Source: Pseudomonadota bacterium (GTDB taxonomy: Bacteria > Myxococcota_A > UBA796 > GCA-2862545). From it: a DNA stretch of 37,321 nt. The stretch spans positions 1 through 37,321 of the forward strand of contig CANLGQ010000007.1 of NCBI GenBank assembly GCA_947490265.1. The letters run 5' to 3'. The position numbers and the translations under genes are program-made. The notes under the pieces are model-generated. The model saw only the letters and a list, made by a program, of their open reading frames with translations. It had not been told where the DNA came from and searched no databases. The number at the start of each line of letters is the position of its first letter. Positions within the stretch are counted from its first letter, which is position 1. Shown piece after piece: positions 17,556-26,748 of the stretch.

Positions 17556-18335
17556 ATGTCGCGTCGGCGTCGCTTCATCGTGGTGTTGCTGGGGATCGCG
17601 TTCGGCCTCGCGCTCCTGGGCTTGTGGGGCGTGAGCCGGGCACCGGAGTCGCCCCCCTCGCGCGGCGCTCGGTCGCCGCACGCCGGGCGTTTGCTGTCCT
17701 CTCGCGGACCCCTGCGCGGGACCCCCTCCCTCGCGGCTCCGGTCGCTGGCCCGCTCGAGCCCGAGGTCGCTCCCGAGGCAGAGGAGCCACCGGCGGAGGC
17801 CATCGTTCGCGTGCAACTCGTCCATCCCGACGGCTCCCCCGAGCCCGATGCGCGCGTGCGTCCGGACTGTGAGGGGGCGCGCCTCGTGTCGCGGAGCGCC
17901 GCTGAGCTGGTGATTTCGGTACCCCCTGGCCGTTGCACGATCGAGGGGATCCGGTCGGATGGATTGCTCGTCGCGCGACCCGAGCCCGTCGAATTCACCG
18001 TGCAGGCGGGGGACGAGCTGGAAGTCGAGCTGGTGTTTCCCGCCGAGCGGACGGGCGGGATCGGGGTCGGGATCCAGGAGGTGGAGGACGGCGTGCTCGT
18101 GACCTACGTGCACCCCGGGTCCCCCGCGGAGCAGGCCGGACTCGTGGCCGGCGACGTCATCGTGGAGGTGGACGGCTTGTCCACCGCGGCCCTCGAGATC
18201 GAGGACTTCGTCGCGGTGATGACCGGGCCCGAAGACACCCCGATCGCCTTCGTCCTGGGGGGCGAGTCCGATACCGGCTACGTCGAGGAGGTGTTGGAGT
18301 TGGTCCGCGCCTACCTGCCCGACCCGCGGAGCTAG
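17556..18335 (+). CDS. Membrane-anchored PDZ-domain protein
   Basis: The 259-residue product begins with five basic residues and one transmembrane helix (about 7-26), giving an N-in, C-out topology. A Pro/Ala/Glu-rich low-complexity linker follows (28-95), then a beta-rich domain (about 95-160) containing a stretch of the type HPDGSPEPDARV that resembles carboxypeptidase-regulatory or Ig-like folds. A PDZ domain closes the protein (about 165-245): GIGVGIQEV, HPGSPAEQAGLVAGDVIVEVDG. Residue order fits PDZ domains of HtrA and GspC type proteins, but no protease domain is present. The ATG at 17556 directly precedes the basic stretch; an earlier in-frame extension to 17385 is poorly coding. Its stop overlaps the convergent PLD gene stop in CTAG. 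Role unknown, possibly envelope scaffolding. Confidence 0.8.
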   Translation: MSRRRRFIVVLLGIAFGLALLGLWGVSRAPESPPSRGARSPHAGRLLSSRGPLRGTPSLAAPVAGPLEPEVAPEAEEPPAEAIVRVQLVHPDGSPEPDARVRPDCEGARLVSRSAAELVISVPPGRCTIEGIRSDGLLVARPEPVEFTVQAGDELEVELVFPAERTGGIGVGIQEVEDGVLVTYVHPGSPAEQAGLVAGDVIVEVDGLSTAALEIEDFVAVMTGPEDTPIAFVLGGESDTGYVEEVLELVRAYLPDPRS

Positions 18336-20068
18336 GGATTCGCGACGTCGGGTGATGCGAAGATCATCGGCTGGTAATCTGGATTCACGAGGCCGATCCC
18401 CGCGGACGCCGGGCACGCCCGCCAGCTCACCGGCACCCGCCCGTCCTCGGTCCCGGAGAGCCGCTCCATCGAGCGAACACCGCCGGCCGGGTCGGGGCCG
18501 CCCGCGAACGGCGGGCCGCCGTTGCCGGCGTGGTCGATCTCGTTCGCGTCGGGATCCTGAAGGATCAGCTCAAACGCCGTGTCTTTGATGTAGAGCCGCG
18601 ACTGGCGGTTGTCGTTGAACGGGTTGAGAACGAGGTCGCCCGAGGCGTAGGCGGTGGTCTGATCCTGCGGTTGGCCGTCGACGTAGGGCTCGAGCGTGTG
18701 GTCGACGATCGTGAAATACCCATGCGGGGGAATGAACGAGCCCGGCGGGAACCCCACCACCACGTCGTCGGAGTTCACGATTTGCCAGAGATCCAGGTCG
18801 ATGCGGCGGTCTGTTCGATTCTCGAGCTCGATGAACTCGTCGAAGCCGTCGAGGTCGACGTCGGTCACGCCGTACCACATGACCTCGTTGATCACGACAT
18901 CGCCGGCCTGGAGCCCGGTCTCGTCGCCGATCCGGTCCCCGCCGAGCTGGCGCGCCTCCGACCACAGGTTGTCGAAGTACGCGTCGTAGAGCAGGGCGCC
19001 TCGCGGTCCCTTGAAGACGATCATGAACTCGTCGTTGCTCTGGGTGGCCGAAGCGGACCAGTTGAACGAGCCGGTGATGATCACGGGGTCGGCCCCTTGC
19101 GCGTCGATCACCATCGTCTTGGCGTGAAGCCGTCCCCCGCCCGCCTGGTAGTCGCCGGGCAGGGTGCTCGCGTCGTTCGGGTCCATTCGAACGGGGATCC
19201 CCGCTCCGAGCAGGCGGTAGACCTCGTGGTACTGGCCGTTGCTGTGGAGCTGGGACTGGTCGATCACCCCCGCGACGGTGTGCCGCCCGCCGAACGGTCC
19301 GCCGTCGTCCGCGAGGTCGGCCGCGGCGTTCAGTTCGTCGAATTCGGCCTGCTTCTCGATGAGCGCAGACCCGAGCTGATCCTTCGTGAACGCGAAGATG
19401 GTGAATCGGATCGACTCCTGGGCCGCTTCCACGAGCTCGAGGATCCGTCCCATCGCGTCTTCGTTCGGAGAGAACCAGACCTCGATCTCGGTGTCGTCGA
19501 CCTGGTACACGCGGCCGTTGTCGAGCTCGACCTTGTTCGCCCCGAACACGCCGTCGAACATCTGTTGGTGCTCGGCTCGAAAGTCCGCGGCGATCGGCGG
19601 GGAGTCGATGACGAAGGAGTTGTTCGCGTTTTGCTGCAGGTCCGAGTCCGACCAGTTCGCTGTGCCGCCGAACACCAGCCGGTCGTCGAGGATCATGAAC
19701 TTGTCGTGCATGATGTGCTGGCCGTTGCCCGCGACGAGCGGGATGTGCTCGTCTCGGAAGGCCGCGTAGCCGGTGTTGGAGAGGTGGCCCGCGTCGCCTA
19801 CCATGCGGATCGCGACGCCCTCGTCGTCGGCGGCCACGAGGGCATCGATCAGCGGTTCGTGGGAGAAGCCCATGACGGCCATGTCGATGGTCGCCCCGGC
19901 CTGACCGATCAAGTCGGTCATCACGTCGACCGCGTCGGGCGACCACACGTTCTCGAGCCGAGAACCGGGGTCGTTGAAGAAGAAGTCGACCCGGCTGCCT
20001 TGGGTCGACGCGAGGTCGGCGGCGCTCGGGGGACCGCACGCGGCGAGCAGCAGCAGCAAGGGCCTCAC
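18332..20068 (-). CDS. Lipoprotein with two intact phospholipase D-like domains and a lamin-tail domain
   Basis: The 578-residue product has a lipoprotein signal with lipobox LAAC (Cys11). Two PLD repeats follow, each with a complete HxKxxxxD catalytic motif: His121-Lys123-Asp128 followed by GGTANWS, and His315-Lys317-Asp322 followed by TGSFNWS. The spacing of two HKD motifs in one chain matches PLD-superfamily nucleases and phospholipases. From about residue 388 the segment VVINEVMWYG...DEFIELENRTDRRIDL marks a lamin-tail (LTD) domain, common in secreted nucleases. The GTG start overlaps the upstream stop (GTGA). It is the last gene of the six-gene envelope operon. DNA or phospholipid could be the substrate; the LTD favours nucleic acid. 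Anchoring to the outer membrane is inferred. Confidence 0.88.
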   Translation of the reverse strand: MRPLLLLLAACGPPSAADLASTQGSRVDFFFNDPGSRLENVWSPDAVDVMTDLIGQAGATIDMAVMGFSHEPLIDALVAADDEGVAIRMVGDAGHLSNTGYAAFRDEHIPLVAGNGQHIMHDKFMILDDRLVFGGTANWSDSDLQQNANNSFVIDSPPIAADFRAEHQQMFDGVFGANKVELDNGRVYQVDDTEIEVWFSPNEDAMGRILELVEAAQESIRFTIFAFTKDQLGSALIEKQAEFDELNAAADLADDGGPFGGRHTVAGVIDQSQLHSNGQYHEVYRLLGAGIPVRMDPNDASTLPGDYQAGGGRLHAKTMVIDAQGADPVIITGSFNWSASATQSNDEFMIVFKGPRGALLYDAYFDNLWSEARQLGGDRIGDETGLQAGDVVINEVMWYGVTDVDLDGFDEFIELENRTDRRIDLDLWQIVNSDDVVVGFPPGSFIPPHGYFTIVDHTLEPYVDGQPQDQTTAYASGDLVLNPFNDNRQSRLYIKDTAFELILQDPDANEIDHAGNGGPPFAGGPDPAGGVRSMERLSGTEDGRVPVSWRACPASAGIGLVNPDYQPMIFASPDVANP

Positions 20069-21189
20069 AGGGCCTCCGCGAGATCGAGCTGCTGCTCGAA
20101 GAGCGAGAGGAGTGCCTGCTGACCGTCGCCATCGGGTTCGTCAGTGTCGAACAGGACGAACAGCGCCCCGTCGATGAGCTGATCGGTCTCGACCTCCGAG
20201 CCGAGCCAGGTGCGGGAGCTCGATACGAGGTCGTGGGTCAACACCATCGCCATCGACGTGTTCCGCTGGCCGAGCCGGGTTTGTTCGAAGTCGACGAGCA
20301 CGACGGTGGGCAGGCGGTCGGTCGCGAGGACCTGGAACTTCTCGACGTCGGGGGTGGCGCCCTCCAGCTCGCGCGCCTGACTCGATGAGGCGACGCCGAA
20401 CCGCGGACCGACGATCACCGTCATCGGAAAGCCGTTGGCCGCCTTGGCCTGAAGCGCGCGGGCGAGGCCGTCGTTCGAGAGGTCGTCGGTCAGGATCCGC
20501 ACGCTCGCTCGCGCGCCGTAGACCGCGTCGATCACCCGCTTGACGAGGCGGTCCTGGGGACCAAACCACACCCCGAGGGTGGTGTCGTCGGTGGTGCCGT
20601 AGGCCCAGCGGGGCTCGACGATCGACTTCGCGGGGTTCGAGAACGCGGTGAGTGCGGTGGCGTCGGTTCCGCCAAACACCTGGTTGAATTCCAACAAGAG
20701 GTCTTCTACAAGCGTCTCGCCGCGTGCCTCGAACACCACCCGCGGGCCGGTGTCCGCGAGGGCCGCGGTGGTCGCGACGACCACCGTCTGCTGGTCGGCG
20801 ATGGCGAAGGCGTGGCTCATCACCACCTGATCGCTCGTCCAGGCGACATCGAGGTTGATCGCGAAGTCGAAGTAGGTGAGCGACCCGTCGGCCAGCCGGA
20901 CCGGAACCAGCGCTTCGGTGAGCGCCGCGATCCCCGGGTCGCCCGCGCGGTCGACATCCGTGACCACCTCGAGATCCACCCCACGATCCCAGGCGGCCAG
21001 CAGCGCGTCGGTGACCTCGAGGTTCTCGCCGCCGGGAAGGGCGACGGCCAGCTCGGTGGTCGCCGCGTCGATCGCCGCGATGAAGTGAGCGTCGGCGGCG
21101 GCCGGATCCGATTCGACGAAGGTCTGCAGGTCGCCGAACAAGGAGCCAGTGTCGGGGCGGGCGCAGGCGAGCAGGGCAAACGCGATCAC
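20065..21189 (-). CDS. Lipoprotein with degenerate phospholipase D-like fold
   Basis: The 374-residue product starts with a lipoprotein signal (FALLAC, Cys9). Its layout parallels the neighbouring PLD protein: an opening helix-strand unit (DAHFIAAIDAATTELAVAL), a strand-rich middle and a second unit from about 240 (WFGPQDRLVKRVIDAVYGARASVRIL) with the spacing of a second PLD repeat. The catalytic HKD motifs are missing. Where the first should fall the sequence reads SHAFAIAD, so the His is kept and the Lys is Phe128. The second is LPTVVLVD with neither His nor Lys. It therefore probably binds or shapes substrate without cleaving it. The GTG start at 21189 overlaps the upstream stop by 4 bp. 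Distant relationship to PLD is inferred from pattern, not from a search. Confidence 0.72.
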   Translation of the reverse strand: MIAFALLACARPDTGSLFGDLQTFVESDPAAADAHFIAAIDAATTELAVALPGGENLEVTDALLAAWDRGVDLEVVTDVDRAGDPGIAALTEALVPVRLADGSLTYFDFAINLDVAWTSDQVVMSHAFAIADQQTVVVATTAALADTGPRVVFEARGETLVEDLLLEFNQVFGGTDATALTAFSNPAKSIVEPRWAYGTTDDTTLGVWFGPQDRLVKRVIDAVYGARASVRILTDDLSNDGLARALQAKAANGFPMTVIVGPRFGVASSSQARELEGATPDVEKFQVLATDRLPTVVLVDFEQTRLGQRNTSMAMVLTHDLVSSSRTWLGSEVETDQLIDGALFVLFDTDEPDGDGQQALLSLFEQQLDLAEAL

Positions 21190-21881
21190 TCGAGGCTCCC
21201 ACTGGCGGTTGCGCCGGAGTAATCTGGTGAATTTGGGCGGCCAGGCGAGGCCAGGGTGCGGAGCCGGCAGGTGTCGGCGATCCGGTCGTTGTTGGGAACG
21301 TCGACGTCGGCGTCGGTGTAAAAGTGCCAAGCGTTGGGGCTCGTGCCCTCCCCGCCGAACATGAGCTCGACCCGTTCCATGCTGCGCGACTCGACGAGGT
21401 CGAAGCCGCCGGCGAACGGCGGGGCGTCGGTGCTCCCGGCCGGCTCAATCAGGCGATCGTCGGCATCGCGCAGGGTGACCTCGAAGGGGTCGCCGGCGGT
21501 GAACCTGAGGGCCGGCGCGACCCCGTCGGGTTCCGGGAAGCATCCGCTGGATTTGGTAGCGTAGAACCAGTGTTCTCCCACCGCGATCTCCCGGCCGTTG
21601 GCGGGGAGGACCGCTGTGGTGGTCACCGCCCCTTCGATGACCAGTTGCCAGCCCGCCACGTCGAGCGGGCGGTTGCCCTCGTTCCGGATCTCGACGAAGA
21701 CATCCGTCGGATCCCAGGCTCCCGTGTCGGTCACGGAGCCGGACCAGCCGACCTCGCTGATCTTCACGCTGCCCCGTTCACCGGAGTTGGGTCCTTCCTG
21801 GTCGCTGTCGCGGAAGGTCACCCCTTGAACGGGCGCCTCCGGTGGACCACATGCGGCCGCGAGGAAGAGCAGGGCGCGCAT
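21186..21881 (-). CDS. Lamin-tail-domain lipoprotein
   Basis: The 231-residue product has a hydrophobic leader ending LAAAC (Cys11), a slightly non-consensus lipobox. Residues about 40-190 look like a lamin-tail (LTD) domain: VKISEVGWSG, then DVFVEIRNEGNRPLDVAGWQL, the usual core of this immunoglobulin-like fold. LTDs in bacteria occur in secreted nucleases and surface proteins and are thought to mediate binding. The C-terminal part (SMERVELMFGGEGTSPNAWHFY) parallels the end of the PLD-LTD protein two genes downstream (RSMERLSGTEDG), so the two LTDs are related. The ATG shares one base with the upstream stop (TGATG), and the gene overlaps the degenerate PLD gene by 4 bp. A binding rather than catalytic role is inferred. 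Confidence 0.8.
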   Translation of the reverse strand: MRALLFLAAACGPPEAPVQGVTFRDSDQEGPNSGERGSVKISEVGWSGSVTDTGAWDPTDVFVEIRNEGNRPLDVAGWQLVIEGAVTTTAVLPANGREIAVGEHWFYATKSSGCFPEPDGVAPALRFTAGDPFEVTLRDADDRLIEPAGSTDAPPFAGGFDLVESRSMERVELMFGGEGTSPNAWHFYTDADVDVPNNDRIADTCRLRTLASPGRPNSPDYSGATASGSLE

Positions 21882-23431
21882 CAGAACCGCACCCGCGCCC
21901 CGCCCGAGGCGGCCATCGCGTTCCTCGGATCGGACGATCCGAGCTGGTCGCCGGCGACGCGGTCGATCTCGATCTCGTAGAACGCGCCGGGCAGCAGGAT
22001 GCCCCCGGTGGCGAGCAGGTCGAGCGACGGAGTGACCTCGGCCGAGATCGTGGCGTCGAGCTCCTGTCCGAGCGTCTTGCCGAGGCGGAACTCCGCGGCG
22101 AACTCGGAGCGGGAGTAGCCGTACGGCGGCTGGATCGTGTCGAGCGCCGATTCCGCGAGGTAGGTGACGCCGGTGTCCTGGGCGAGCCACCAGCCGATCC
22201 CGAAGCCGAGCGGGCCGGACAGCTCGACGTCGACCCCGGCGTGGAGCAGGCGGGTGCCCGACTTGCGATCGGGCTCGTGTGGCGTGTCGGCGATGCCCTC
22301 GGTGCCGACGTACGCGCTCGGGTGCCAGCCGAGGTACCGGTTCATCAGGAGGCCGCCGGCCTGGCGGCCCTTCATCGACACGTAGCCGTGGCTGTAGAGC
22401 AGGCCGTTCTCGGCATAGGCGGCACCGAGGCAGTCGAAGTAGGTCAGCTCGCCGTCGAAGCCGGAGGTATCGCCTGTGTCGTCCTCTTTCTGGCCCCGCA
22501 GGTTGACTCCCGCTCCCCAGGCGAAGCCGTAGGCGTCCGCGTCCTGCGCGGTGAGTTCCTTGCGGTCTGCGCCGGTCGAGAAGTCGAAGTGGGCGAAGGG
22601 TTTGACGATCCCGAACTCCCCTTGGGCGCGGATCCCGGCGTTGGCGACCCAGTCCTTGTCGGCGAAGTTGCCGAGCTCGCCGTCATAGCTGATGTCGGCG
22701 CCGGTCCCCTTCGCCCCGATCTTCGTGAAGAAAGCGTAGGCCGTGCCGTCGATGGGCAGGCTTGTTTCGTCCATCGCGACCACACCGCCGGTTCGCAACG
22801 TCGCCCGCGCGCCCCGCAGGTTGTAGATCGGATCGGAGGACTGCCCGACATAGGACAGGAAATCGGGTCCGGCGTCGTCGCCAGAGACCGCGACGAGGTT
22901 GGCCGGGATCAAGGTGATGTGGCCAAAGCCGGCGATCGGAAGGTCGCCGCGGACGTAGTCGAGCACGTCGGCGAGGGCATAGTCGGGGGCTCCGGCCAGG
23001 CCGCCGATCTCGAAGTACTGGCGGCCGACGGTGAGGCTCGGCCCCTCAGCGGTCGTGGAGGCCCGAACGGTGAGGTTGTTGAAGTACAGCCACCCGCCAT
23101 AGGGCGTCACCGCGCCGATCTGGTCGCCTCCCCACAATCCGCGGAACGAGGCGGACACCGCGACCGACGTGTGGTCGTCGATCTGGTGCGCCACGTCGAG
23201 CGCAGCGCCGGTGAACGCGAGCTGGCCTCGGTCGTCGCTGTCGAGGATGGCCTGATCGCTCGACTCGTCGAGCTCGCGGAAGTCGAGGTTGCCGTACTCG
23301 TGCCATTGCGTCTCGATCACGCCGCCGACGGTCGTGGCCGCGCCCTCCTTCGGGGGCTCCGCGGTGCGGTATTCGAGGTCGGCGTCGACGCTTTGGGCAA
23401 AGACGGATGCGCTGAACAGTGAAACGATCAC
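21881..23431 (-). CDS. Outer-membrane beta-barrel protein (porin-like)
   Basis: The 516-residue product has a signal peptide cleaved near VFAQ (about residue 12). The mature chain is a long series of amphipathic strands with aromatic girdle residues and short turns (for example HTSVAVSASFRGLWGGDQ and SEFAAEFRLGKTLGQ). It ends RVRF; a C-terminal Phe is the recognition signal for the BAM machinery. Composition is acidic and Gly-rich, and Cys is rare, as expected for a barrel of about 16-18 strands. I cannot assign a porin family. The GTG start overlaps the upstream stop (GTGA), so it is tightly coupled with five lipoprotein genes and probably serves as their channel or membrane partner. Transport of DNA fragments or nucleotides is a hypothesis only. 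Confidence 0.8.
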   Translation of the reverse strand: MIVSLFSASVFAQSVDADLEYRTAEPPKEGAATTVGGVIETQWHEYGNLDFRELDESSDQAILDSDDRGQLAFTGAALDVAHQIDDHTSVAVSASFRGLWGGDQIGAVTPYGGWLYFNNLTVRASTTAEGPSLTVGRQYFEIGGLAGAPDYALADVLDYVRGDLPIAGFGHITLIPANLVAVSGDDAGPDFLSYVGQSSDPIYNLRGARATLRTGGVVAMDETSLPIDGTAYAFFTKIGAKGTGADISYDGELGNFADKDWVANAGIRAQGEFGIVKPFAHFDFSTGADRKELTAQDADAYGFAWGAGVNLRGQKEDDTGDTSGFDGELTYFDCLGAAYAENGLLYSHGYVSMKGRQAGGLLMNRYLGWHPSAYVGTEGIADTPHEPDRKSGTRLLHAGVDVELSGPLGFGIGWWLAQDTGVTYLAESALDTIQPPYGYSRSEFAAEFRLGKTLGQELDATISAEVTPSLDLLATGGILLPGAFYEIEIDRVAGDQLGSSDPRNAMAASGGARVRF

Positions 23432-24246
23432 CCTGAGCTCCCGGTGGCGGGGTCGACGATCTCGACCTGGCCGATCTGCATGACGACGATAGCGAAGATG
23501 GAGTAGCTGTACAGCACCGGACCGGTGACGATGATCCGCGTTCCGACGGGGTAGTCAACCCCCCTGCGGTTCAACTCGACGTCGAGCGTGATGTCGTAGG
23601 TCGTGCCATTGTCGGCCAGAACCTGGAAGGCCCCGAAGGTGTCCTTCTCGGAGATCACGTCGCCCTCGACACGGCGGACCAGCGCGATGTCGGGCAGATC
23701 GAGCGGCCCGCTGGGAACCTGGTAGTAGATCGGCTCCGGACCTCGCTCGATCTCGATCACGTCGTGGGCGGTGACCATCGGGAGGTCATACACATTGGCG
23801 ACCCCGCGGATCGACAGGCTGACGCGATCGCCGGCGTCGAAGTGGGCGACCTTGCTGTCGCCCAGCACGAAGATGCCGCCGCTCGCATCCTGGATGAAGT
23901 ACGAGCCGTAGTACTTTTCGTCGTCGCCGTCGCAGCCCTCGGTCTTGAAGTAGAGCCGAGGGAAGACGGTGACGATCCCTTCGATCTGGGCGGGGAGCTC
24001 CGACGACGTGGCCCAGTCGGGACAGGTGGGGAGCGGCCCAGGAGCAAAGAGCGATTGGTAGGGCTCGGCGATGGGGAGGTCCCCGATCGCCGTCGAGCCC
24101 GTGACGGCGTAGGGCTCCTCGGTGAACGCGAGCGGTTCGATCACCTCGAGCGGATTCCCCGCGTCGAACCAATCCGACGGATCGTCGGGGAGTGGGTGGT
24201 CGAGCCCCGCGCACCCGGCGAGGCAGGTGGCGAGGATCCAGCGCAC
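23428..24246 (-). CDS. Lipoprotein with an OB-fold-like domain
   Basis: The 272-residue product has lipobox LAGC (Cys12). The central region (about 85-165) reads AQIEGIVTVFPRLYFK, then YYGSYFIQDASGGIFVL, DAGDRVSLSIRGVANVYD and a final strand with MVTAHDVIEI. This strand order, with the FIQDxxGGI turn and GDxVxxxG, is the pattern of the YhcR/ExeM-type OB fold found in extracellular nucleases, where it is thought to bind nucleic acid. A second similar unit may run to the C-terminus (VLADNGTTYDITLDVEL...YPVGTRIIVTGPV). No nuclease motif is present. Its GTG start directly abuts the stop of the preceding gene. A nucleic-acid-binding surface lipoprotein is inferred. Confidence 0.72.
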   Translation of the reverse strand: MRWILATCLAGCAGLDHPLPDDPSDWFDAGNPLEVIEPLAFTEEPYAVTGSTAIGDLPIAEPYQSLFAPGPLPTCPDWATSSELPAQIEGIVTVFPRLYFKTEGCDGDDEKYYGSYFIQDASGGIFVLGDSKVAHFDAGDRVSLSIRGVANVYDLPMVTAHDVIEIERGPEPIYYQVPSGPLDLPDIALVRRVEGDVISEKDTFGAFQVLADNGTTYDITLDVELNRRGVDYPVGTRIIVTGPVLYSYSIFAIVVMQIGQVEIVDPATGSSG

Positions 24247-25077
24247 TTAGTAGGCCTTGATCCAGTCGTTGTTCAGGACGCTGTCGAACTGCAGCACGTC
24301 CATGAACTCGATGACGGGTGCCGAGACCCGGACGCAGGCCCCGTTCACGAGGCCATCCGACCCGTCGCGCACCAGCACGTCGGCACTCGCGCCATAGTCC
24401 ACGTCGAAGCAGAGCGGCCCACCGCAATCCACGCCGTCGCTCGTCATCTTGCCCCAGAAGCGCACGACCTGGCTCATGTCGTTGTCGTAGACGAGGTCCT
24501 GGCCGCGCACGTCGCGAACGAACACGGCGTTGGCCGACGAGTCGATGGTGAAGTCGCTGAGGTCGGTGATCTCGGGCGTGCCGTAGTAGTTCTGGATCTC
24601 GAGCGCGGTGAAGCTCACCGCGTCGCCGACGGCCAACCCGGGCATGTCGATGCCGTAGACGAGGATGGCCCCGTCCGCGTCGGCCAGCCAGGCCTGGGTG
24701 GCGGGGTCGCCAAACTTTGCGGCCCCGACGATAGCGCCGGTGACCGCGATGTTCACCGCGGCGAAGTCGCCGGGCTTGGCGGGCGCGGCGGCGAGGACCG
24801 CGCCGATTCCGGCGGCGTTGGCGTAGGGAGTGCTCGTGCCGGTCGGGACGAGGTCGCCAAAATCGGTGGCCCAGCCTGCGGGCTCCTCGCATGGGGTTCC
24901 GACGTCGGTGTCGGTGTCGGTGTCGCTGTCGGTGTCGCCATCGGTGTCGGCGTCGGTGTCGGCGTCGGTATCCGCATCGGTGTCGGTGTCGCCGCCACTA
25001 TCGGTGCTCGGCTCCGGGCGGCAGCCGAGGGTGAGCGTCAGTAGGGGAGCGGCGAGCAGCCAGGGGCGAAGCGACAT
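24247..25077 (-). CDS. Lipoprotein with Asp/Thr-rich linker and OB-fold-like domain; first gene of the envelope operon
   Basis: The 276-residue product has a lipoprotein signal (LTLGC, Cys19), then a low-complexity Asp/Thr linker (about 24-60), the spacer type often seen in surface lipoproteins of Myxococcota. The rest is an OB-fold-like domain: FAAVNIAVTGAIVGAAKF, TQAWLADADGAILVYG, GLAVGDAVSFTALEI, NYYGTPEITDL. The same strand plan occurs in the next gene, so the two are probably paralogues. Four Cys residues in the C-terminal half could form disulfides. The ATG at 25077 has GGAGGT at good spacing. The gene heads a six-gene operon running to 18332. No catalytic residues are apparent. Confidence 0.75.
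   Translation of the reverse strand: MSLRPWLLAAPLLTLTLGCRPEPSTDSGGDTDTDADTDADTDADTDGDTDSDTDTDTDVGTPCEEPAGWATDFGDLVPTGTSTPYANAAGIGAVLAAAPAKPGDFAAVNIAVTGAIVGAAKFGDPATQAWLADADGAILVYGIDMPGLAVGDAVSFTALEIQNYYGTPEITDLSDFTIDSSANAVFVRDVRGQDLVYDNDMSQVVRFWGKMTSDGVDCGGPLCFDVDYGASADVLVRDGSDGLVNGACVRVSAPVIEFMDVLQFDSVLNNDWIKAY
24901..24992. repeat. Imperfect GTCGGT/GTCGGC hexanucleotide repeat
   Basis: About 15 degenerate copies of a 6-bp unit lie in tandem inside the lipoprotein gene and encode the Asp-Thr/Asp-Ala linker on the minus strand. Units differ at the third base and by single substitutions, so the tract is a diverged coding repeat. Such tracts can change length by slippage in 6-bp steps without shifting the frame, varying the linker by two residues per unit. 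Confidence 0.8.
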
Positions 25078-25216: not shown

Positions 25217-25248
25217 GGACCTCCGGGCCCTTGACCCGCTGGCGGAGC

Positions 25249-26748
25249 ATGCCGGAACGTCCCCCCCATTTGCCCCCAGGAACGCTGTTAGGCGACGATT
25301 TTACCGTCGAGGGCTTGGTCCGGCTTTCCGAAGGGCGGATGTTTTACCTCGCCCACGATTCGCGGCCGGAGCGCGAGACCCGGCGATGCTGGAGTTGCGA
25401 TCACGCGGGCACCCCGCGGGCCGCGTCGGTGTGCGCGCGGTGTGGATCGGCGATGCGCGATCGGCGCTTCCTCGTTTCGGCGCATTGGAACACCGAGGTA
25501 TTCGACGCCTTCGAGGCCTACCATCGCCTGCGGATCGAACACCCGGGCGTGATCGCGCCCTTGGTCGTGTTTCGGCAGCAGGGGGTGCTCTACTCGGTGG
25601 TCCCCTATGGCGGCGAAGGGTTGATGATCGACGAGGCGTCGCCGCTCTCGAACGAGCGGCTCCTCTACCTGGCTCAGCGGGTGCTCGGGGTGCTGGCCTG
25701 GATGCACCGCAGGGGGGTGCGCATACGCGCGATCAACCGGGCAAACCTGCTGGTCTCGCCGGATGGGTCGGTCCGATTCTTCGACCCGGAGGTCGATTCG
25801 GTCCGGACCGCTCCCGTCGCCGTGGCGGAGCAGGCCGACGTCTTGCGGAGCGCCGGCGAGATGCTCCGTCGCTACTGCAACATCGAGGCAGACGGGCTCG
25901 CCGAGATGCTGGGCGCCTTGGAGGCCGGACTGGCGCCGGCTCTCCCCGCCTTCGGTCGCCAGATCGAGACGGCCCACGACAATTGGGCACCGCTGACGTA
26001 CTCACACTGGGACGCGGCGATGTCGGATGTCGGCCTCACACGCCAGCTGAACGAGGACAACTGGGGTTGGCTTCGACTGTCCGAACGCGCGCGGCTGTAC
26101 GTGGTGGCGGACGGGATGGGCGGACATGATGGGGGCGAGGTCGCGTCCGCGCTGGCCGTCGAGACGATCTGCCGGGTCGCCCGCGAGCGAGAGTCCGTAT
26201 CACCCGAAGGGGACGATGCGGTGGAAGCGATGCTCGACACCGCGTTTCAGACCGCCAACAACACGATCAAGGAGAACGCTGAGGCCAAGGGCACCGACAT
26301 GGGCACCACCCTCGTGAGCTGCCTCATCATCGACAACCGGCTGGGCTTTCTGGCCAATGTCGGTGATTCCCGCGGCTATCTCCTGCGTGATAGCGCGCTC
26401 CATCAGGTCAGCCGCGACCACTCGCTCGTCCAGAAGATGGTGGAACGGGGTCGGCTCACTGCTGACGAGGCCCGGAATCACCCACACAGCAACATCCTGT
26501 TGCGCACCGTCGGGACGGAGCGCGACGTGGAGATCGACATCTTCCGAGTGGAGTTGGCGCCCGGCGACCGGCTCCTCATGTGCTCCGATGGCTTGTGGGG
26601 CGAGGTCGAGGACCGCGACATCGAGGCGATCCTCAACACCTACACCGACCCGCGGATCGCAGCGCGGGAACTCGTGCGCGCGGCCCACCACGGCGGGGGC
26701 AAGGACAACGTCACCCTGATGATCGTGACCATCCCCCACGCAGCCTGA
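25249..26748 (+). CDS. Zinc ribbon-pseudokinase-PP2C phosphatase fusion
   Basis: The 499-residue product has three parts. Residues 10-40 resemble a kinase glycine-rich loop region and are interrupted by a Cys4 zinc ribbon (C47-x-x-C50, C62-x-x-C65). Residues 70-240 follow a Ser/Thr-kinase C-lobe, but the catalytic loop reads IRAINRANLL where HRDLKPANIL is expected, and the DFG triad is DPE (179-181), so kinase activity is unlikely. Residues 255-497 are a full PP2C domain: RQLNEDN (265-271), VADGMGGHDGGE, NVGDSRGYL, SRDHSLVQ, CSDGLWGE and GGKDNVT supply the metal-binding Asp and Gly residues. It should dephosphorylate Ser/Thr, gated by the pseudokinase. I chose the ATG at 25249; a TTG at 25231 is the alternative. 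Confidence 0.88.
   Translation: MPERPPHLPPGTLLGDDFTVEGLVRLSEGRMFYLAHDSRPERETRRCWSCDHAGTPRAASVCARCGSAMRDRRFLVSAHWNTEVFDAFEAYHRLRIEHPGVIAPLVVFRQQGVLYSVVPYGGEGLMIDEASPLSNERLLYLAQRVLGVLAWMHRRGVRIRAINRANLLVSPDGSVRFFDPEVDSVRTAPVAVAEQADVLRSAGEMLRRYCNIEADGLAEMLGALEAGLAPALPAFGRQIETAHDNWAPLTYSHWDAAMSDVGLTRQLNEDNWGWLRLSERARLYVVADGMGGHDGGEVASALAVETICRVARERESVSPEGDDAVEAMLDTAFQTANNTIKENAEAKGTDMGTTLVSCLIIDNRLGFLANVGDSRGYLLRDSALHQVSRDHSLVQKMVERGRLTADEARNHPHSNILLRTVGTERDVEIDIFRVELAPGDRLLMCSDGLWGEVEDRDIEAILNTYTDPRIAARELVRAAHHGGGKDNVTLMIVTIPHAA

Follow-up and report, generated by a model that had tools for sequence, protein, structure and literature searches.

What would a bacterium do with five lipoproteins and one outer-membrane barrel encoded in a single uninterrupted row? 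Six open reading frames (ORFs) for such products run along the minus strand, from 25077 down to 18332, of the window analysed here, which is the whole 37,321-nucleotide stretch of contig C7 from a metagenome assembly of 3.76 Mb (~78% complete). They are transcribed in the order A1, B2, barrel, LTD4, PLD5 and PLD6, where LTD denotes the lamin-tail domain and PLD the phospholipase D fold. Judged from these proteins and their relatives, the locus probably encodes a multi-subunit nuclease that is anchored in the outer membrane and acts on nucleic acid outside the cell or at its surface, a reading that we hold with moderate confidence. The surface degradation of extracellular DNA and the import of its pieces across the outer membrane are poorly defined in Gram-negative bacteria. 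The features of the locus are as follows.

24247..25077, minus strand: A1, lipoprotein; long tether rich in Asp and Thr (DTDTD), OB-like region at the C-terminus; lipobox LTLGC; ATG start at 25077
23428..24246, minus strand: B2, lipoprotein with predicted tandem OB folds; lipobox LAGC
21881..23431, minus strand: barrel, predicted AlgE-like outer-membrane beta-barrel of ~18 strands
21186..21881, minus strand: LTD4, lipoprotein with a lamin-tail domain at ~21447-21779; lipobox AAAC
20065..21189, minus strand: PLD5, lipoprotein, pseudo-enzyme of the PLD fold; lipobox LLAC
18332..20068, minus strand: PLD6, predicted nuclease; lipoprotein, two PLD domains with HKD motifs, lamin-tail domain at the C-terminus; lipobox LAAC
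19685..19708, minus strand: first HKD motif of PLD6 (H121, K123, D128)
19103..19126, minus strand: second HKD motif of PLD6 (H315, K317, D322), followed by GSFNWS
18524..18907, minus strand: C-terminal lamin-tail domain of PLD6 (Pfam LTD 6.3e-13, residues 388-515)

All five junctions between the ORFs are gapless, with the genes either abutting or overlapping by 1-4 bp, so translation of the six is probably coupled. A signal peptide and a lipobox Cys are present in A1, B2, LTD4, PLD5 and PLD6; in the family alignments, this Cys never varies in A1, B2, LTD4 and PLD6 and hardly ever in PLD5. The signal peptide of the barrel is plain, rather short and without a lipobox. The ORFs, junctions and lipoboxes bear out an earlier sequence-only reading of the window, which had described six coupled genes for five lipoproteins and one barrel.

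The predicted catalyst of the cluster is PLD6. Pfam matches two PLDc_2 domains (6e-37) and an LTD (6e-13) in this one chain, and both HKD motifs (HxKxxxxD) are intact, their H, K and D each being found in 42/42 sequences. When the PLD6 profile is compared with the PDB, the eight best sequences all belong to Zucchini/MitoPLD, Nuc or NucT (E 1.6e-19 to 2.8e-16), and the phospholipase 7e0m (1e-12) and the PLD3/PLD4 exonucleases rank behind these nucleases. NCBIfam likewise scores NucT at 53.9 bits versus 15.4 for cardiolipin synthase. By sequence, PLD6 is nearest to the Nuc/NucT/Zucchini nuclease branch, and nuclease activity is predicted. In PLD5, the equivalents of the catalytic His and Lys are gone from 39/39 sequences and only the Asp is retained, which makes it a conserved pseudo-enzyme and corrects the earlier description on this point. 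It matches a single degenerate PLDc domain in Pfam (1e-6), and PLDc_2 is matched in 12/13 family members. The lamin-tail call survives profile search, since LTD4 matches Pfam LTD (E 2e-5) together with 15/15 of its family members (best 2e-10), as does PLD6. Profile comparison relates LTD4 to the lamin-tail part of PLD6 (hhalign 99.6%) and PLD5 to its PLD part (hhalign 99.8%), so that both could derive by duplication from a PLD6-like ancestor. One spirochaete genome (G144) has a second PLD-PLD-LTD protein of ~1000 residues, a PLD6 paralogue, away from the cluster and with no adjoining barrel (L140:8817-11816). In a Leptospiraceae assembly (L139:5024-7660), the PLD6 frame is split in two, its PLD part being separated from the lamin-tail part by a stop or frameshift; it is whole in other genomes.

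A scan with one genome per species yielded 50 loci, which lie in Myxococcota (including Lujinxingia vulgaris TMQ2) and in Spirochaetota (Turneriella, other Leptospiraceae and one Brevinematales genome). The core barrel-LTD4-PLD5-PLD6 stands in this order in 43/43 loci that have all four genes, and the six-gene order is that of the window in 26/26 loci that have all six; mean identities at the conserved-order loci are 35-54%. In this count, genes were ranked by midpoint in loci with all genes on one strand. There is no exception, the apparent disorder in L056, L089 and L092 being due to overlapping stop-to-stop ORFs or to the choice of a second A1-like gene. Such conservation far exceeds chance. 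The gene order is thus kept in relatives, and the core reaches in part into a second phylum; the Brevinematales cluster is cut down to LTD4-PLD6-barrel (L103). Pairwise divergence is correlated for five of the six products (r 0.78-0.91 over 34 loci), as would be expected from joint inheritance as well as from coevolution. The distribution is patchy, since the barrel is present in 40/142 relatives and in 61/379 genomes drawn from the phylum, and the locus is both present and absent within the same families. Three metagenome records titled Klebsiella pneumoniae also carry the locus (L054, L056, L067); these titles look wrong because the three are relatives of the window organism. Lujinxingia vulgaris is a cultured predator among the carriers, and part of the cluster is kept in free-living spirochaetes. 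The window organism shares its phylum with the bradymonads, which NCBI still files under Deltaproteobacteria but which belong to the Myxococcota (PMC11509652).

Downstream of the core, spirochaete loci have two more genes on the same strand, the first for an OB-like lipoprotein related to B2 or A1 and the second for Endonuclease I (Pfam PF04231, E 2e-36 and 9e-42). The continuation is seen in 6/6 distinct spirochaete genomes with enough downstream sequence (L136, L139, L144, L145, L147, L148), Turneriella parva among them. The presence of an unrelated DNA nuclease beside this core is the strongest evidence for a nucleic-acid substrate, to which the affinities of PLD6 also point.

OB folds, which the sequence-only reading had called in this cluster, are matched in neither A1 nor B2 by the OB families of Pfam, and the weak matches of B2 are to DUF5818/DUF5689. 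The call nevertheless survives structure search. The AlphaFold2 model of B2 (predicted local distance difference test, pLDDT, 82; predicted template-modelling score, pTM, 0.77) is that of a tandem OB protein, and its best Foldseek matches are HIN domains, Teb1, POT1 and SSB (E 4.5e-6 to ~2e-3). The global template-modelling (TM) scores are low (0.2-0.4), probably because the two OB folds are oriented differently to each other. On this model, the OB assignment for B2 stands. A1 is a profile relative of B2 (hhalign probability 97.7%, E 1.4e-12), and an OB fold is likely there as well. PDB sequence searches with A1, B2 and the barrel gave no meaningful match. Some Myxococcota have a second A1-like gene on the opposite strand, a few kb off the cluster (L089:2624-3829, L092:2782-4386, L101:3104-4141).

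The AlphaFold2 model of the barrel (pLDDT 76, pTM 0.80) has 18 main strands. Foldseek places AlgE first (E 1e-14, TM 0.5-0.6), followed by chitoporin, MOMP and OprD-type channels, and Pfam Alginate_exp is matched by 3/17 barrel family members at E up to 0.1 (best 1.7e-7), the window protein giving no match. The likeness to AlgE lies in the modelled 18-strand fold; identity is 12%, and no alginate genes are seen here. The Turneriellaceae have a further barrel paralogue, a distant one (~35% identity) that lies outside any lipoprotein cluster of this kind (L137:7037-8911, L138:8014-9795, L143:1714-3585); in Turneriella parva it sits after an aquaporin-like gene.

Taken together, these parts suggest how the nuclease might work. 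The OB lipoproteins A1 and B2, one of them on a long acidic tether, and LTD4 would hold a nucleic-acid strand, and PLD6, with its double HKD, would cut it through a covalent phosphohistidine, as enzymes of the Nuc/NucT/Zucchini branch do. The dead PLD5 may serve as a structural or regulatory partner. The AlgE-like barrel would be the membrane partner, either as an anchor that places the lipoproteins or as a gated channel for nucleotides or short oligonucleotides. For the gain to the cell, we favour, with less certainty, the scavenging of nucleotides or phosphate, similar in purpose to Helicobacter NucT. A fuller version of this scheme is tentative, though a real possibility: surface OB, lamin-tail and PLD lipoproteins, joined in spirochaetes by Endonuclease I, would capture and cut DNA or RNA, the products would pass through the cluster's own AlgE-like channel, and the dead PLD would be a fixed subunit. 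If true, such a foraging machine would be a nucleic-acid counterpart of the glycan-uptake systems of Bacteroidota. The carriers include some of the bradymonads, a group of predators reported to lack steps of purine and pyrimidine synthesis (PMC7460792), and purM is missing in 4/99 of the better genomes, all four of which carry the barrel. Both inner-membrane routes exist among carriers, since a ComEC-type protein occurs in 8/8 and a concentrative nucleoside transporter in 6/8 of those tested; their presence does not discriminate.

Several observations weigh against a nucleic-acid machine of this kind or against parts of it. OB and LTD folds also have roles unrelated to nucleic acids, and Endonuclease I was not found in the Myxococcota loci examined. 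All six products are acidic in Myxococcota (median isoelectric point 4.0-4.5). The inner side of the barrel is net acidic, with 254 D/E versus 152 K/R residue cells, inward and outward residues having been assigned roughly, by hydrophobicity alternation and without coordinates. The pore of AlgE, on the other hand, is electropositive (PMC4118822), so simple passage of a polyanion is not favoured. With regard to scavenging, three of the four purM-less genomes are of one genus, which reduces the purM link to about two lineages, and the window genome keeps PyrB and PurM and so shows no evident nucleotide auxotrophy. Obligate nucleotide auxotrophy was rejected as a driver, since most carriers, like the window genome, have PyrB and PurM. 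The earlier proposal of a surface machine that binds, cuts and perhaps imports DNA or another phosphodiester polymer is partly supported: its nucleic-acid substrate is backed by the branch of PLD6 and the spirochaete Endonuclease I, and the acidic lumen speaks against simple passage of a polyanion through the barrel in the manner of AlgE. Predation, put forward in the same reading as a possible role, cannot be the general reason for the locus, because the core is present in Turneriella, a spirochaete that is not known to be predatory.

The acidic lumen speaks for a surface nuclease without import, in which the barrel would only anchor the lipoproteins or thread them to the surface, like Slam in purpose, and the complex would clear extracellular DNA for biofilm control or defence. 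In Myxococcota loci with enough sequence, lipoprotein genes flank the barrel gene on both sides, which also favours this reading. However, the paralogue that stands apart in Turneriellaceae implies that barrels of this type can be of use where these lipoproteins are missing, the folds matched are those of substrate channels (AlgE, chitoporin, OprD), and the barrel model shows no additional periplasmic domain like that of Slam. We regard this alternative as rather unlikely. The same closeness of fold to AlgE, with the three members that match Alginate_exp, would suit an exporter of a self-made polymer, an exopolysaccharide or a phosphodiester-linked one, with the PLD and lamin-tail proteins to trim it or anchor it. 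Among conserved neighbours no polymer synthase was noticed, although neighbours were not systematically searched, and the conserved partners are of nuclease type, including Endonuclease I, so that export is improbable. An alginate-type exporter was rejected, for the fold agrees and the gene context does not.

The nuclease-type partners also bear on the proposal that PLD6 attacks phospholipids, either in prey membranes or in remodelling the cell's own outer membrane. The superfamily includes phospholipases, 7e0m is among the PDB matches, and predatory bradymonads are among the carriers (PMC7460792). The nearest relatives of PLD6 are nucleases, though, the OB and lamin-tail partners and the spirochaete Endonuclease I indicate nucleic acid, and the core is also found in a spirochaete not known as a predator; we consider a phospholipid target quite improbable. 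The least probable of these alternatives, and a very doubtful one, accepts DNA as the substrate and makes the complex an accessory of natural transformation that captures and nicks DNA ahead of PilQ/ComEC uptake. Loss of NucT modestly affects transformation (PMC5714352), and every carrier tested has a ComEC-type protein, but ComEC is widespread (10/14 control genomes) and so does not discriminate, and two unrelated nucleases favour degradation over the uptake of intact DNA. A defence system was rejected as the identity of the locus. PADLOC gave no whole-protein match to an anti-phage defence model among the six products and no match of any kind for A1, B2, barrel and LTD4; the partial matches, to DrmC and others (E 4e-9 and weaker), cover the HKD part only.

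The nuclease reading can be set beside known systems. ExeM and Xds of Shewanella and Vibrio act on extracellular nucleic acid and combine a nuclease domain with a lamin-tail domain and an OB-like region, all three of which ExeM needs for full activity (PMC6085458). Theirs is a single polypeptide with an endonuclease/exonuclease/phosphatase (EEP) catalytic domain, whereas here these elements are spread over separate lipoproteins (LTD4, A1/B2 and PLD6), with a PLD catalyst, a pseudo-PLD and a barrel. The idea of lamin-tail and OB domains as separate lipidated subunits thus holds for LTD4 and A1/B2, and is qualified by PLD6, whose own LTD, fused to PLD, is the sole fusion. No EEP match was found in any of the six proteins with Pfam or NCBIfam. 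A further comparison is with Candidatus Izemoplasmatales, which are wall-less, single-membrane bacteria. Their 'DNA-degradation loci' also cluster genes with a lamin-tail nuclease for extracellular DNA, but use one large protein with lamin-tail, nucleic-acid-binding and nuclease domains, and no barrel is described (PMC8289736). Helicobacter pylori NucT, of the same HKD nuclease branch as Nuc and Zucchini, is a membrane-associated PLD nuclease with a preference for single strands that has been linked to purine salvage and to transformation (PMC5714352); it is a small, single-HKD, dimerising protein, unlike PLD6 with two HKD domains per chain, a lamin-tail domain and a six-gene locus. In outline, lipoproteins, a barrel and a degrading enzyme recall SusCD-type uptake, but the barrel here is an 18-strand porin type without a TonB plug, and no homology is claimed.

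All parts come from known families. No description was found of the whole, in which separate OB and lamin-tail lipoproteins are combined with an AlgE-like barrel dedicated to them and a fixed pseudo-PLD. A literature search covering few subscription papers returned nothing joining lamin tail domain, phospholipase D, outer membrane and lipoprotein, and nothing relevant for OB, lamin-tail and Endonuclease I. The cluster, which across two phyla unites tandem OB proteins and a specific barrel with nucleases of two unrelated types, provides directly testable candidates in the cultured Lujinxingia vulgaris and Turneriella parva. It also gives a context to the lamin-tail domain of bacterial nucleases, so far unexplained, and to a conserved pseudo-PLD.

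Directly upstream of the cluster, a divergent gene (25231-26748 in the window) encodes a PP2C-type phosphatase with a kinase-like N-terminal part. This position is kept in several members of the same family (L039, L042-L044, L046, L048).

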